This document shows positions 55,251-61,041 of a DNA stretch of 64,000 nucleotides, one piece after another. The notes below the pieces were generated by a model. The model did no database searches. It was not told the origin of the DNA and saw only the letters and a list, made by a program, of their open reading frames with translations. Numbering within the stretch: the first letter of the stretch is position 1; each line of letters starts with the position of its first letter. The translations under genes and the position numbers were made by a program. The stretch is from Bacteroidota bacterium. GTDB lineage: Bacteria > Bacteroidota > Bacteroidia > Flavobacteriales > Weeksellaceae. The stretch covers positions 1-64,000 of the forward strand of contig JAFDZI010000002.1 in assembly GCA_018266955.1 (NCBI GenBank), given 5' to 3'.

Positions 55251-55931
55251 ATGAAGAAAATTTTTCTATTTCCATATCTTTTTTTGCTTTTCGCAAGCAT
55301 TTCCTGCCACAAAGAAATTCCATCTGAAAAAGGCGGAATCGACATCATTTCCAACATTTATTTTGGTGCATCGAAAGGTTTGAACCAGCTTCAAAGTTTT
55401 CATCTCTCAAAACTCAATTATTCCGGAGATTCCATTGTGGAATTGGTTCCCGATTTTACGTTTCCGGAAATCAACAAACAGACGTATTTCATCAAAGATT
55501 CGCTGTATTTTCCACTCGAAACGGAAAATAATACACCTCTTTTTTCGGAAATTTCCAAAAAGCAAAAACCAAATTTAATTTGGAACAAAAAAGGCGGAGC
55601 TATTTTTTCAAAAGAAGAAATCCCGAATTACCGAAACCGGAGAAACCTTTCTGACACGGTTTTGTTCAAGAAAAAATACAAGCGTTTTGAAATCAAATCG
55701 CCGTGGAATTACACGAGATTTTATGTTTATCCGACTGATACGATTTTGCCGTATTCACTCTACAAACACGTTGAAAAAGACTATCACGGAAGATTGGAAC
55801 GCATTGATTCCTACAACAAAGAAACCGATATTTTCGTAACGCTCCAACTCATTCCGAGGAAAAACTGGGACGATTCGGCAAAAGAAATTTTTGATTTCAA
55901 CCATTTTGTAAAAAACAGAAAAAGTGAGTAA
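55251..55931 (+). CDS. Putative lipoprotein of the ICE
   Basis: A 226-residue protein with a signal peptide and lipobox ending in FASISC (Cys19). The mature part is rich in aromatic and charged residues, with no known domain. The ATG at 55251 gives the signal peptide; ten earlier codons are not likely used. Its stop overlaps the GTG start of the 1705-residue protein, so both are translated together. Lipoproteins here may act in surface exclusion, but this is a guess. Confidence 0.6.
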   Translation: MKKIFLFPYLFLLFASISCHKEIPSEKGGIDIISNIYFGASKGLNQLQSFHLSKLNYSGDSIVELVPDFTFPEINKQTYFIKDSLYFPLETENNTPLFSEISKKQKPNLIWNKKGGAIFSKEEIPNYRNRRNLSDTVLFKKKYKRFEIKSPWNYTRFYVYPTDTILPYSLYKHVEKDYHGRLERIDSYNKETDIFVTLQLIPRKNWDDSAKEIFDFNHFVKNRKSE

Positions 55932-58900
55932 CCAAGCCGTTTTAAACCCTGTTTCTGATGATATTTCCGTTTTGGAAGGAAGTAAAAACGAACTCATTGT
56001 TTTTGGAAACAGAAACGATGTCCAATCTTTTTTGGAACTTCTGAAACTGAACAATCAAACCAACTCCCGGACTTTGATTGCCTTAAATTCAATTGAAAAT
56101 ACCAAGATATTTCTGAACAGATTTCGGAATTTTGACGGTAAAATTTTTCTTTGTCTGAACGGACATCGAAGCGGAAATTTCGTAACCGAAAAAATTCTTT
56201 CGGAGTTCAAAAATAAAAACATCAAAGACATTCGTTTGCTGTATGGAATTTCCGAAAACGGCAACCAAAATTTGAGAGAATATTTGCAAAATAAAATCAA
56301 TTTTCAAGAGAAAAACCCTAACTTAGTTGAACCAAAAAAATCAGAAAATGCAGACAGAACTGAACCCAACCGAATTTCCGAAACTCAGCACCTTGAATGG
56401 GAAACACCTGAACGAAACATTGGAGAACCTCGCCAAAACAGCCAATCCGAGCAAAACGGAAATCACCGAAGCGGACAAACTTTGGGCAGCAACGATGCTG
56501 GAAATGGACTTGCAGACACAATCGAACAGCATTTGGTCGGAAACAGAGGAAGATTATTTTCCGATGTAGAAAATCTTATTGAACAATACAAAGGTCAGAA
56601 ACTGACCAATAAGCAAGTTGCAGAAGTGGTTTCCGCAGCTTGTTTTGTTTCCGGCGACAACAAAATTTTACTCAAAGAAAATTTCAAAATTTCCGATGAT
56701 TTAAAGGAAATCTGCAACCAATATAAAAGTGGCGGAACTGCAAAAGAAGGTCGTGGAATCCTCGATGAATACTACACCGATTCAAAAATTGTAGAGGCGG
56801 TCCGCCATCTCATCAAAGATGAATTTAAAGGGAAAAATGAAATTTCAGTTTTAGAACCGAGTGTTGGAACAGGAAATTTTTTAGAAGCAATCAAAAATTT
56901 AGGAACAAAAACCAACATCACCGCTTTTGAAATCAACGAAACCACAGCGAAAATTGCAAAAATTCTTTATCCCGAAACCAACATTAATTTCCGTTCTTTT
57001 GAAACCAAATTTATTGATGAAAAAGGACTGAAAACCAATCCCGAAAATTATCAAAACCAATACGATTTAATCATCGGAAATCCGCCTTATGGCGACCATC
57101 GTGGACTTTACAAAGGTTTGGGCGAAGAACCGAAAATCTCGAAATACGAAGATTATTTCGTAAAACGTAGTTTAGATGTATTAAACGAGGGCGGAACTTT
57201 GGCAATGGTGCTTCCGTCGGGTTGGCTGAACCGCCAAAATAATCTGAAAAATGCCGAAATTACAAATGCTTTCAGACTTCCTGTCGGTGCTTTTTCGGGA
57301 ACGCAAATCGGAACGGATATTATTATCCTGAAGAAAAATTCACAGAAAATCTCGGAGGATATTTCCAATTATTTTGAAAATAATCCCGATAAAATTTTAG
57401 GCGAAACCAAAGAAAAAACCAATCGTTTCGGGTGTTTGGAAGAATATGTTCACGGAAATTTGGAAAATGCTTTGCTTAAAATTGAACAGTTTAAAAATCA
57501 AACTGAAACTGAAAAAGTTGAAAAAATCGAAAAAGTTGAAAAAATTGAAGAAACCGAGAAAACTGAAAAAATTGGAAATCTTTTTGAGGATTTATTTTTA
57601 GAAAATACGGAATCAAAAACCGAAAATAATTTTCAAAAAACACAAAATAATTTAGATGAAAATTTAACCGGAAATGAATCGGAAGATTTCATTAATGAAG
57701 AAAAAAAGGAGTTGGATTTTACTGAAATTCAAGAAAAAATCGAACAGGTTTTATCAAATCTTGATACTGTGAAATTCAAATCTCCGGCGGTTTTGAAAGA
57801 GATTGAAAAATACACCCAACTTCAATCTCAAATATTGGATGAACCCAAAAATTTTTCCCAAAATCAAATCGACGAAATCCGACAAAAAGCGGATAAAATT
57901 ATTCAATCTCAAAACGAAAAATCCACAGAATACAGGGTTCAAACAAAACCGAACATTCAGAAAAAAATTCTCAAATATCATTTTATAAAACCCGATGAAA
58001 TCGTTAATACTTCACTTCAAAACTGTTCGGAAATTTCCGAAAAACAGATTAAAGCATTTCGGGATACGGAATATGACGGAACGCTCAATAATTACGGTAA
58101 ACACTATGAATTTGCGAATTATATAGACGGAAAATGGGTTCACGATTTTTATTATACGGAAGGAAATATTTACAAAAAATTAGAGCAGTTAGAAATTGAT
58201 TTTATTGATAAAAATGCAGTTGGCGGAACTGAAAATCAGTATGAGAAACAGAAGGAGTTACTAGAAAATGTTTTACCAAAACCGAAAACTTTAGATGAAA
58301 TCATCATCAGTCCCAATCACGAATTTGTACATCAATTTGAAATCGGAATGATTGAAAAATCCCAATGGAATCCGGTAAAACGTGAAATGGAAACTTATTT
58401 GGTTCAAGGAACTTTGGCTGAAAAATTCAAAGATTTTGTCGGTACTTTATCGAGTGATGCTTTTGCAGGTTCTTCAGCTTGGGAAGTCCGAAGTTTTGTT
58501 GATAACGAATCGGTTACTGGAAGCGATAAAGAGCGAAATGCTTTGATCCGAGAGCGAAGAAAAGCAGCTGCAAATGACTTGTTTTACAAATTTTTGAGGG
58601 AAGAACTTTCCGAAGATTTAAGAGAAAAATTCGTGAAAGATTTTAACCGAAATTACAACAATATTCACGTTCCGGATTATTCAAAATTTCCGTTGTTCTC
58701 AAAAATTCATCTCAATTTCAAGGGAAATCCGTTGAATTTAACTGAAGTCCAAAAAGCCGGAATCGGGCGACAAACCACAAAAGGAGTTGGACTTTTGGCA
58801 CACGAAGTCGGTTTCGGGAAAACCTTGTCCGGAATTTTATCAATGCACGAAGCAATGGAGCGTGGAAATGCAAAAAGACCGTTGATTGCAGTTCCGAACG

Positions 58901-61041
58901 AAAGTATTCTCAAACAATGGGTAGAAACAATTTTTGAAACCATTCCGAATGCGAAAGTCAATGTTTTAGGAAATTTGGGGAAAGATTACGACCTCTCAAA
59001 ATTCGATAACAAAGATGGTGAAATTACTTTGGTAACATATGAAGGTTTTAATAACATTGGGTTTTCCGAAAATATTACCAAAAGTTTGGCTTCCAAATTC
59101 TCCTATATTTCTGAAAATGAATTAAGGAGCGTAAACACTATCAGCGAAAGGGATTTTCAAAAAGAATTGGAAAAAGAAAAGGAAATAGAGGGCAAAATGA
59201 AACGTGGAAAAATCTACGATTGGGAAGATTTCGGCTTCGACCATTTGACGTTTGATGAAGTTCACAACGTTAATCATATCGTTGGAAAAGTGCGGATTGA
59301 AGACAGAAGACACACATCGGATTTTAGAAGTCAAAACCAACAAACTTCGAAATTGGGCATTAATACTTGGATGGCGGCACAATATATTCAAGACCAAAAC
59401 AATGGCAGAAATGTAACGCTACTTTCCGCAACGCCTTTTACCAATAAGCCTTTGGAGTATTATTCGATTTTGTCGCTAATTGCCAATAATCGTTTGGAAG
59501 AATCGGGATATTTCAATGTGAATACATTTTTTGAAACCTTTATGGAAGCCGATAATGATATGGAAATCGATGCCAAAGGCGATGTAAAATTCAAAGCCAA
59601 CGTGCGGAGATTTAAGAATAATTCGCTGTTTCAGCAACTTTTATCGGAGTTTATCGACATTAAAGGCGAAGAAGATAATCCTGAGTTGGTAAGACCAAAT
59701 AAGATTAACAAAGAATACAAAATTGAGCAAAACGACCTTACAAAAGAACAATACGATTTATTAAATGAAAGTTTCAGCGAAACTGAAAAAGGTGCTATTC
59801 TTACCCATATTTTGAACGGACGGAAAATTGCAATTTCTCCATATTTATCACCTTATTATAAAGGCGAAAACCCGACTGCAAAAGAGTTTGTGGAAAATTC
59901 GCCGAAGTTGAAACAGACAATGGATTTAATTGCCCAAAACAAAAAGGATATTCCCAATTCCGGACAAATTATTTACTCCGAATTGGCGGTTGCAGAATTT
60001 CCGAAACTGAAAGAATATTTGATAGAAGAAGTCGGCTACAAACCCGAAGAAATCGGGATTATTACCGGAGCAACAAGCAAACCGAACCGCCTGAAAATTC
60101 AAGATGAATTTAATGACGGAAAAATAAAAATTGTGATTGGAAGTGAGGCGATTCAGGAGGGAATGAATTTGCAGGAAAATACGACTGATATTTATATGCT
60201 TTCGTTGCCGTATAATTTTACTTCGCTTCGACAAGTGGAAGGTCGAGCTTGGAGACAGGGCAATAAAAACGATAATGTGAGAATTAATTTTATGCTTACC
60301 AATGACAGTATTGATGTTTTTATGCTCCAGAAACTGCAATCCAAACAAGCAAGATATTTGGAAGCGATGAAAAAAGGTGCTGATGTTTTGGATATTTCGG
60401 ATATTTCTACGCAGGAACTGAAAACCGCCATCATTACCGACCCCGAAACTCGTGCAAACATCGAAATCGAGCTGATGAAAAAACGCATTGAAAGCGAGAA
60501 AAATAAATTTTTGGCAGATTCTGCTTTTGTGTTGAGAAAGTATGAAGATTTTATCAAAGTTCAGGAGGAAGTAACCAAAGCACAACACAATTACAACAGA
60601 ATTGAGGGCTATTCAAAAGAGGAAACCGAAAACGGAGAATATTGGAAAAATCAGTTGCCTTTTTATCAAAAATCCATTGATGCAGCAAAGGTTTTGGTTC
60701 AGGAAAAGATTGCAGAACTTTCCGAAAAAGGCGTAAATATTACCGAAATTGAACATCAGACGAAAGCAACCAATGATAGAATTGCCGAACTGGATTCAAA
60801 ATTAGAAGAATTGCCGGAAGTGAGAGCCGGATTGGTTTCACAATACAAAGAGGAAAAGGAAAAGCAACTTACGGACAATCTAAAAACGGATTATGTGAAA
60901 GAGCGGGAAGCCGAGAATGTTTCTATTTTTAAAGCAACAAATATTAAATTGTCCGAACCGACTTATGAAGCGAAAAGCAGTCAAAATCAGAGTGAAAATG
61001 AGGAAAGGGAAGAAAGTACTTCTTTTCAGAGAAGGAGATGA
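55924..61041 (+). CDS. Polyvalent protein: degenerate Toprim-like domain, N6 DNA methyltransferase, SF2 helicase
   Basis: A 1705-residue fusion. Residues 20-125 resemble a Toprim-like fold, but the DxD position reads LNGH (N79, H81). A Q/N-rich linker spans 130-215. The methyltransferase follows with LEPSVGTGNF (310-319) and NPPYG (386-390). A charged linker leads to an SNF2-like helicase: HEVGFGKT 960-967, DEVH 1111-1114, SATP 1168-1171, EGRAWRQG 1439-1446. Such giants on conjugative elements are thought to guard incoming DNA (DarB-like antirestriction). GTG start; the upstream stop overlaps. Confidence 0.85.
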   Translation: MSNQAVLNPVSDDISVLEGSKNELIVFGNRNDVQSFLELLKLNNQTNSRTLIALNSIENTKIFLNRFRNFDGKIFLCLNGHRSGNFVTEKILSEFKNKNIKDIRLLYGISENGNQNLREYLQNKINFQEKNPNLVEPKKSENADRTEPNRISETQHLEWETPERNIGEPRQNSQSEQNGNHRSGQTLGSNDAGNGLADTIEQHLVGNRGRLFSDVENLIEQYKGQKLTNKQVAEVVSAACFVSGDNKILLKENFKISDDLKEICNQYKSGGTAKEGRGILDEYYTDSKIVEAVRHLIKDEFKGKNEISVLEPSVGTGNFLEAIKNLGTKTNITAFEINETTAKIAKILYPETNINFRSFETKFIDEKGLKTNPENYQNQYDLIIGNPPYGDHRGLYKGLGEEPKISKYEDYFVKRSLDVLNEGGTLAMVLPSGWLNRQNNLKNAEITNAFRLPVGAFSGTQIGTDIIILKKNSQKISEDISNYFENNPDKILGETKEKTNRFGCLEEYVHGNLENALLKIEQFKNQTETEKVEKIEKVEKIEETEKTEKIGNLFEDLFLENTESKTENNFQKTQNNLDENLTGNESEDFINEEKKELDFTEIQEKIEQVLSNLDTVKFKSPAVLKEIEKYTQLQSQILDEPKNFSQNQIDEIRQKADKIIQSQNEKSTEYRVQTKPNIQKKILKYHFIKPDEIVNTSLQNCSEISEKQIKAFRDTEYDGTLNNYGKHYEFANYIDGKWVHDFYYTEGNIYKKLEQLEIDFIDKNAVGGTENQYEKQKELLENVLPKPKTLDEIIISPNHEFVHQFEIGMIEKSQWNPVKREMETYLVQGTLAEKFKDFVGTLSSDAFAGSSAWEVRSFVDNESVTGSDKERNALIRERRKAAANDLFYKFLREELSEDLREKFVKDFNRNYNNIHVPDYSKFPLFSKIHLNFKGNPLNLTEVQKAGIGRQTTKGVGLLAHEVGFGKTLSGILSMHEAMERGNAKRPLIAVPNESILKQWVETIFETIPNAKVNVLGNLGKDYDLSKFDNKDGEITLVTYEGFNNIGFSENITKSLASKFSYISENELRSVNTISERDFQKELEKEKEIEGKMKRGKIYDWEDFGFDHLTFDEVHNVNHIVGKVRIEDRRHTSDFRSQNQQTSKLGINTWMAAQYIQDQNNGRNVTLLSATPFTNKPLEYYSILSLIANNRLEESGYFNVNTFFETFMEADNDMEIDAKGDVKFKANVRRFKNNSLFQQLLSEFIDIKGEEDNPELVRPNKINKEYKIEQNDLTKEQYDLLNESFSETEKGAILTHILNGRKIAISPYLSPYYKGENPTAKEFVENSPKLKQTMDLIAQNKKDIPNSGQIIYSELAVAEFPKLKEYLIEEVGYKPEEIGIITGATSKPNRLKIQDEFNDGKIKIVIGSEAIQEGMNLQENTTDIYMLSLPYNFTSLRQVEGRAWRQGNKNDNVRINFMLTNDSIDVFMLQKLQSKQARYLEAMKKGADVLDISDISTQELKTAIITDPETRANIEIELMKKRIESEKNKFLADSAFVLRKYEDFIKVQEEVTKAQHNYNRIEGYSKEETENGEYWKNQLPFYQKSIDAAKVLVQEKIAELSEKGVNITEIEHQTKATNDRIAELDSKLEELPEVRAGLVSQYKEEKEKQLTDNLKTDYVKEREAENVSIFKATNIKLSEPTYEAKSSQNQSENEEREESTSFQRRR
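56348..56569 (+). CDS. Possible overprinted 73-residue protein inside the polyvalent gene
   Basis: ATG-initiated ORF in the +1 frame relative to the host gene, lying over its low-complexity linker. The product has balanced composition and regular helical patterning (FPKLSTLNGKHLNETLENLA, then TEADKLWAATMLEMDLQ), while the host frame there is Q/N/R-rich and featureless. GC is locally higher. This is what dual coding looks like, but nothing in the sequence proves translation. Confidence 0.4.
   Translation: MQTELNPTEFPKLSTLNGKHLNETLENLAKTANPSKTEITEADKLWAATMLEMDLQTQSNSIWSETEEDYFPM

Follow-up and report, generated by a model that had tools for sequence, protein, structure and literature searches.

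The nested reading frame and its relatives

Does a short ORF lying inside the linker of a large methylase-helicase gene encode a protein of its own, and, if so, how did two proteins come to share the same bases? The question was raised by positions 56348-56569 (+ strand) of the window, i.e., the whole 64,000-nucleotide stretch of Bacteroidota DNA analysed here, where an ATG start, 73 codons and a TAG stop form an ORF with an acidic predicted product (MQTELNPTEFPKLSTLNGKHLNETLENLAKTANPSKTEITEADKLWAATMLEMDLQTQSNSIWSETEEDYFPM; pI 4.3). It is enclosed entirely by the host ORF (55924-61041, + strand) and lies one base forward of the host frame (host+1 frame), as an earlier note on this DNA had described. 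Two further observations of that note were reproduced: the host-frame reading of the same bases is a low-complexity, Q/N/R-rich sequence, with S and E also abundant (NADRTEPNRISETQHLEWETPERNIGEPRQNSQSEQNGNHRSGQ...), and GC content rises locally (46.8% in the small ORF versus 32.6% and 36.7% in the host gene just upstream and downstream, respectively).

The host gene (1705 aa, GTG start) consists of a Toprim-like N-terminus, a linker, an Eco57I-type adenine methylase and an SNF2-like helicase. The methylase (aa 329-444; 56908-57255, +) and then the SNF2-like ATPase (SNF2/ResIII to Helicase_C matches, aa 951-1446; 58774-60261, +) are joined in a single polypeptide, with Eco57I, SNF2-rel_dom and Helicase_C all above the Pfam cut-offs; the Toprim-like part (55924-56312, +) was delimited by a weak Pfam match below the cut-off and by alignment of the upstream region. 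This part appears to be degenerate in the window, since it reads KIFLCLNGHRSG where L008, representing homologs fused to an N-terminal primase-like part, reads KIFLCLDGDNAG, so that the acidic Toprim motif is lost. The GTG start of the window-type host gene overlaps the end of the upstream gene. The neighbouring genes in the window, encoding a T4SS coupling protein, an M23 peptidase and SSB, are the setting of a conjugative element, and a related Chryseobacterium plasmid has a similar gene order, with traN, a coupling protein and a helicase-related protein. The single annotated record available for the locus (NZ_CP139138.1) lists only the helicase-related protein there and leaves the small gene out.

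When the host protein was fixed and synonymous codons were resampled, the shifted frame of the window stayed open in 9% of trials (P ~0.09, not significant); therefore, the openness of this single ORF is no evidence by itself and was rejected as such. What exceeds chance is the conservation of the shifted-frame protein among relatives. Clear homologs (E 1e-15 or better) were found in the window's own genome and in eight others among 59 genomes (the window's own and its relatives), and a homolog was present in 93 of the 320 family genomes. All 17 genomes with matches in the order-wide sample belonged to the family, and in the class-wide sample only the window's own genome matched. A named collection yielded 68 loci, from Chryseobacterium, Epilithonimonas, Kaistella, Cloacibacterium, Elizabethkingia, Empedobacter, Riemerella, Capnocytophaga and others. 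The plasmid search yielded one plasmid and IMG/VR two contigs with homologs, and no phage record was found in the phage search. Most homologs have 94-111 aa, with a mean identity of ~60%, and every embedded case examined lies in the host+1 frame at the same linker position. Three weak matches (G045, G046 and G051), located within long ORFs and 23-38% identical, were taken as chance.

Selection in the two frames and the start of translation

Selection was evaluated in 83 of the 94 distinct copies, namely, those in which a host spanning the ORF could be recognised and the start was standard. Differences at host codon positions 1, 2 and 3 amounted to 0.36, 0.24 and 0.16, respectively, in the overlap, versus 0.25, 0.19 and 0.45 in one flank and 0.18, 0.11 and 0.46 in the other. 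Thus, within the overlap, host third positions vary least and host first positions, which are the third positions of the small frame, vary most, and the pattern changes from that of the host to that of the shifted frame near the ends of the small ORF. According to our own re-implementation of the OLGenie counting described in PMC7531306, based on pairwise counts that are not phylogenetically independent and on bootstrapping over codons, dNN/dNS of the small frame in the overlap was 0.22 (0.17-0.30), well below 1 as expected under purifying selection, and dNN/dSN of the host frame was 1.41 (1.07-1.90). The flank controls gave 0.67-0.75 for the pseudo-frame and 0.11-0.17 for the host frame. We read the host value of 1.41 as a lack of detectable amino-acid constraint rather than as positive selection.

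A shifted ORF may look conserved merely as a by-product, or shadow, of a conserved host protein, and such a case occurs in these elements. A second nested ORF of ~66-73 aa, carried by related elements within their large upstream gene (L239, L240, L246-L255) and noticed because its tail resembles that of certain free-standing proteins discussed below, looks conserved, yet its host third positions are still the most variable, as under ordinary host constraint; it was rejected as a gene (L246-L255) and serves as a negative control. Because the control ORF keeps host third positions most variable, the codon-position test distinguishes a true overlap from a shadow. The linker ORF shows the reverse, with host third positions least variable and a host dNN/dSN of 1.41, which refutes a shadow and leaves that explanation with practically no probability. 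Constraint on DNA or RNA rather than on protein, for example by a transfer origin or an RNA structure, would explain why low variation extends ~12 codons upstream of the ATG, and such an element may lie close to the start. Inside the ORF, however, variation follows the three-base period of the small frame, synonymous sites of that frame vary freely (dNS 1.05), and the proteins retain 42-81% identity with the 111-aa copy, their indels being codon-sized, so a cis site as the cause of the whole signal is very improbable.

Both frames are open. When the small protein was kept constant, the chance expectation was 8.3 stops per copy in the host frame, whereas none was observed in the 83 loci, a set chosen for a spanning host, which bears on this absence; the interrupted copies L060, L107 and L111 fall outside it. 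Among 29 sequences less than 80% identical, treated as independent, the chance that all shifted frames would be open is ~1e-34. Stops in the +1 frame of close relatives, named by the earlier note as evidence against the gene, were not found, apart from L084, in which the host is intact and the small ORF has a disrupted 5' end without the ATG, and L111, a decayed element with both frames broken. Consequently, on the points considered in an OLGenie-type analysis, the small frame is under purifying selection and open across divergent relatives, and the host frame is also used, its flanking domains being conserved. Since the open host frame is retained with no amino-acid constraint, it serves as a tolerant inter-domain linker.

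The best overall explanation, that the small ORF is truly protein-coding and forms a same-strand overlap (overprinting) with the host gene, is one to which we assign a probability of about 0.88. The suggestion of two overlapping products is thereby strongly supported by comparison of some 90 genomes (~90) with the ORF in the same place and frame. To our knowledge, long same-strand overlapping genes are rarely documented in bacteria, and annotation pipelines tend to omit them. The comparative signal found here is strong and extends over many genera. It also runs against the usual expectation, in that constraint falls on the embedded protein and the host frame is a neutral linker. The small gene makes a clean test case for the origin of overlapping genes, and its products form a family of small proteins new to the mobile elements of Flavobacteriales.

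The ATG is preceded by a conserved A-rich leader (56318-56347, +) that carries A at -3 and, throughout the family, is predicted to have hardly any RNA structure. The start codon is ATG in 93 of the 94 distinct proteins; however, ATG survives 71% of synonymous resamplings that leave the host residues unchanged, and its conservation is therefore weak evidence when taken alone. Position -3 is A in 83% of cases, and the MFE of the start region is -2.1 kcal/mol versus -6.3 kcal/mol for other host 50-mers. These features fit the initiation rules of Flavobacterium johnsoniae, in which A at -3 is a positive signal, in a phylum without Shine-Dalgarno sequences (PMC6847099). Since the low variation reaches ~12 codons upstream, a further signal near the start is possible. 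A Bacteroidota-type internal promoter pattern was absent from all 83 upstream regions. Some ribosomes would initiate at the internal ATG of the host transcript by way of the A-rich, unstructured leader, while others would read through the same mRNA and translate these bases as linker.

The protein could also be real but made by +1 ribosomal frameshifting at an A-run, which would give the Toprim part an alternative tail, and at many loci an A-rich run does lie in the open stretch of ~7 codons before the ATG. An in-frame stop occurs no more than seven codons (<=7) upstream of the ATG in nearly all 83 loci (in the window, the TAG at 56324-56326, seven codons before the ATG), and at 11 of them it is only 0-1 codons away, which makes frameshifting into the small frame unlikely there. 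The near-universal ATG, the A at -3 and the weak structure suit initiation, so frameshifting is an improbable source of the protein.

Origin of the overlap, product and comparable systems

Median distances are 42 codons from the last Toprim-like motif to the start of the small gene and 17 codons from its end to the motif that opens the methylase module. The small gene thus fills the gap between two host domains, as would suit a cistron captured when its neighbours fused. In a more distant relative, a Treponema plasmid, the methylase-SNF2 gene begins near the methylase, with separate genes upstream. Among the 59 family genomes that have the host methylase, G285 is without the small ORF altogether and G309 has an additional host copy without it; both of these host copies are 5'-truncated remnants. 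The earlier note held that a lack of homologs outside the overlap would count against the gene; such homologs exist, namely, a diverged free-standing copy (L133/L290), in which stops interrupt what would be the host frame, and a 25-residue core recurring in free-standing small proteins (hhalign probability 97.5%).

These lines of evidence favour capture at fusion without proving it. The small gene would once have stood by itself as a cistron, with a Toprim/primase gene on one side and a methylase-helicase gene on the other, and the fusion of these two would have bridged it, leaving the middle gene intact in frame and function and read by the fusion as a neutral linker. We give this account about an even chance. 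The earlier suggestion of a separate gene captured by the fusion is compatible with the anatomy, but no unfused Toprim/small gene/methylase arrangement was found. If the account is true, bacterial overlapping genes can arise by capture at a fusion junction, and the embedded frame then predates the linker frame. The reverse order, with the fusion and its linker first and the small protein arising de novo inside the linker, is a serious though less probable competitor: nearly all homologs sit in the overlap, and the family is confined to Flavobacteriales in the samples searched. Against it stand the filling of the inter-domain gap, the Treponema gene order and the existence of the free-standing copy and core-motif proteins.

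Four free-standing proteins carry the core motif W..MLEMDLK.QSGAIW (L241 5939-6235, L242 3146-3352, L243 5018-5236 and L244 4466-4681), and three of them are encoded directly after a membrane-protein gene, presumably of the bacterial PH-domain type. A search for relatives of these free-standing proteins in plasmids or viral contigs confirmed none. In L245 (2035-2472), the same LEMDLEMQSGAIW motif is located at the C-terminus of a RelB-like antitoxin (weak Pfam match), which suggests a portable interaction motif.

The small proteins are acidic (mean pI 5.0), and structure models of low global confidence (pTM 0.46 and 0.35) predict them to be helical. Pfam, NCBIfam, PHROGs and PADLOC gave no full-length match common to members, apart from which single members or a few had weak matches, and a sequence search of PDB with the small protein gave none; a PDB fold search with a low-confidence model (pTM 0.46) returned nothing at E 0.001. 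Assignment of a function from the fold was dropped because of the low-confidence models and the missing PDB match, as was assignment to defence or toxin-antitoxin families, to which no match was consistent. The residues that never vary cluster around xANPxK...DKxWxAxMLEMDL, and they do not resemble an active site. Based on its position, its co-inheritance with the host and the shared mRNA, we propose that the small protein, acidic and helical, acts as an accessory (binding) protein in the DNA-protection, or methylase-helicase, module of the element. It shows no enzyme-like catalytic pattern and may work with this module in transfer or establishment of the element.

The host gene pairs an adenine methylase with a SWI2/SNF2 ATPase, like the DarB-like dyad of polyvalent proteins, which has been linked to protecting incoming DNA from restriction (PMC5512222); by analogy, the host gene may have the same role. 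In the parts of that work consulted, no overlapping gene is mentioned and the small protein is not among the named domains. The linkers of polyvalent proteins seem worth a systematic search for hidden genes.

A closely similar arrangement is that of comS within srfAB of Bacillus subtilis, where a small protein, the proven regulator ComS, is likewise encoded in a distinct frame wholly within a very large multidomain gene (PMC12915044). comS is expressed from the host operon, as the small gene would be. The small protein, whose role is a proposed one, and its host are unrelated to the proteins of that pair; here, the host frame is an amino-acid-neutral linker, and the small gene is carried by mobile elements. 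The overprinted orphan genes of E. coli O157:H7, namely, a recent orphan gene (PMC4683798) and antisense overlaps with expression data (PMC9927249), are also long, non-trivial overlaps overlooked by annotation, whereas the small gene is on the same strand as its host, occurs across many genera and is supported by selection at the sequence level.

The shortened copy in the window

The window's copy has only 73 aa because of a C-terminal deletion at approximately 56560-56575 (+), located by comparing L001 with L012 and L004; about 45 host codons were removed, in frame for the host, together with the C-terminal third of the small gene. A relative from Epilithonimonas bovis (L115/L138) has the short form too (75 aa). 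The two differ by four substitutions in about 219 aligned ORF bases plus a 6-base indel, versus 38/390 and 67/900 differences in the flanks. Three of the four substitutions are nonsynonymous, one of them changing a conserved Trp (W to L).

The window's copy is a truncated variant retaining the conserved core, and its lineage is constrained; the activity of the copy itself is doubtful. The earlier note is to be corrected in this respect, the 73-codon form that it described being a C-terminally truncated one. That the family is real and this copy a decaying, non-functional remnant has somewhat less than an even chance: the C-terminal third and the conserved Trp are lost, and the same genome holds a second copy of normal length (111 aa, G000:C8), whereas E. 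bovis has the short form too, and the two copies differ less in the overlap than in the flanks.

Length also varies in the other direction, the copies of Riemerella columbipharyngis and Capnocytophaga having longer C-termini (total about 120-165 aa). Six loci from these two and a related genome (L127, L128, L144, L147, L184 and L188) encode small proteins of about 125-165 aa with extra C-terminal helices, which still overlap the host.
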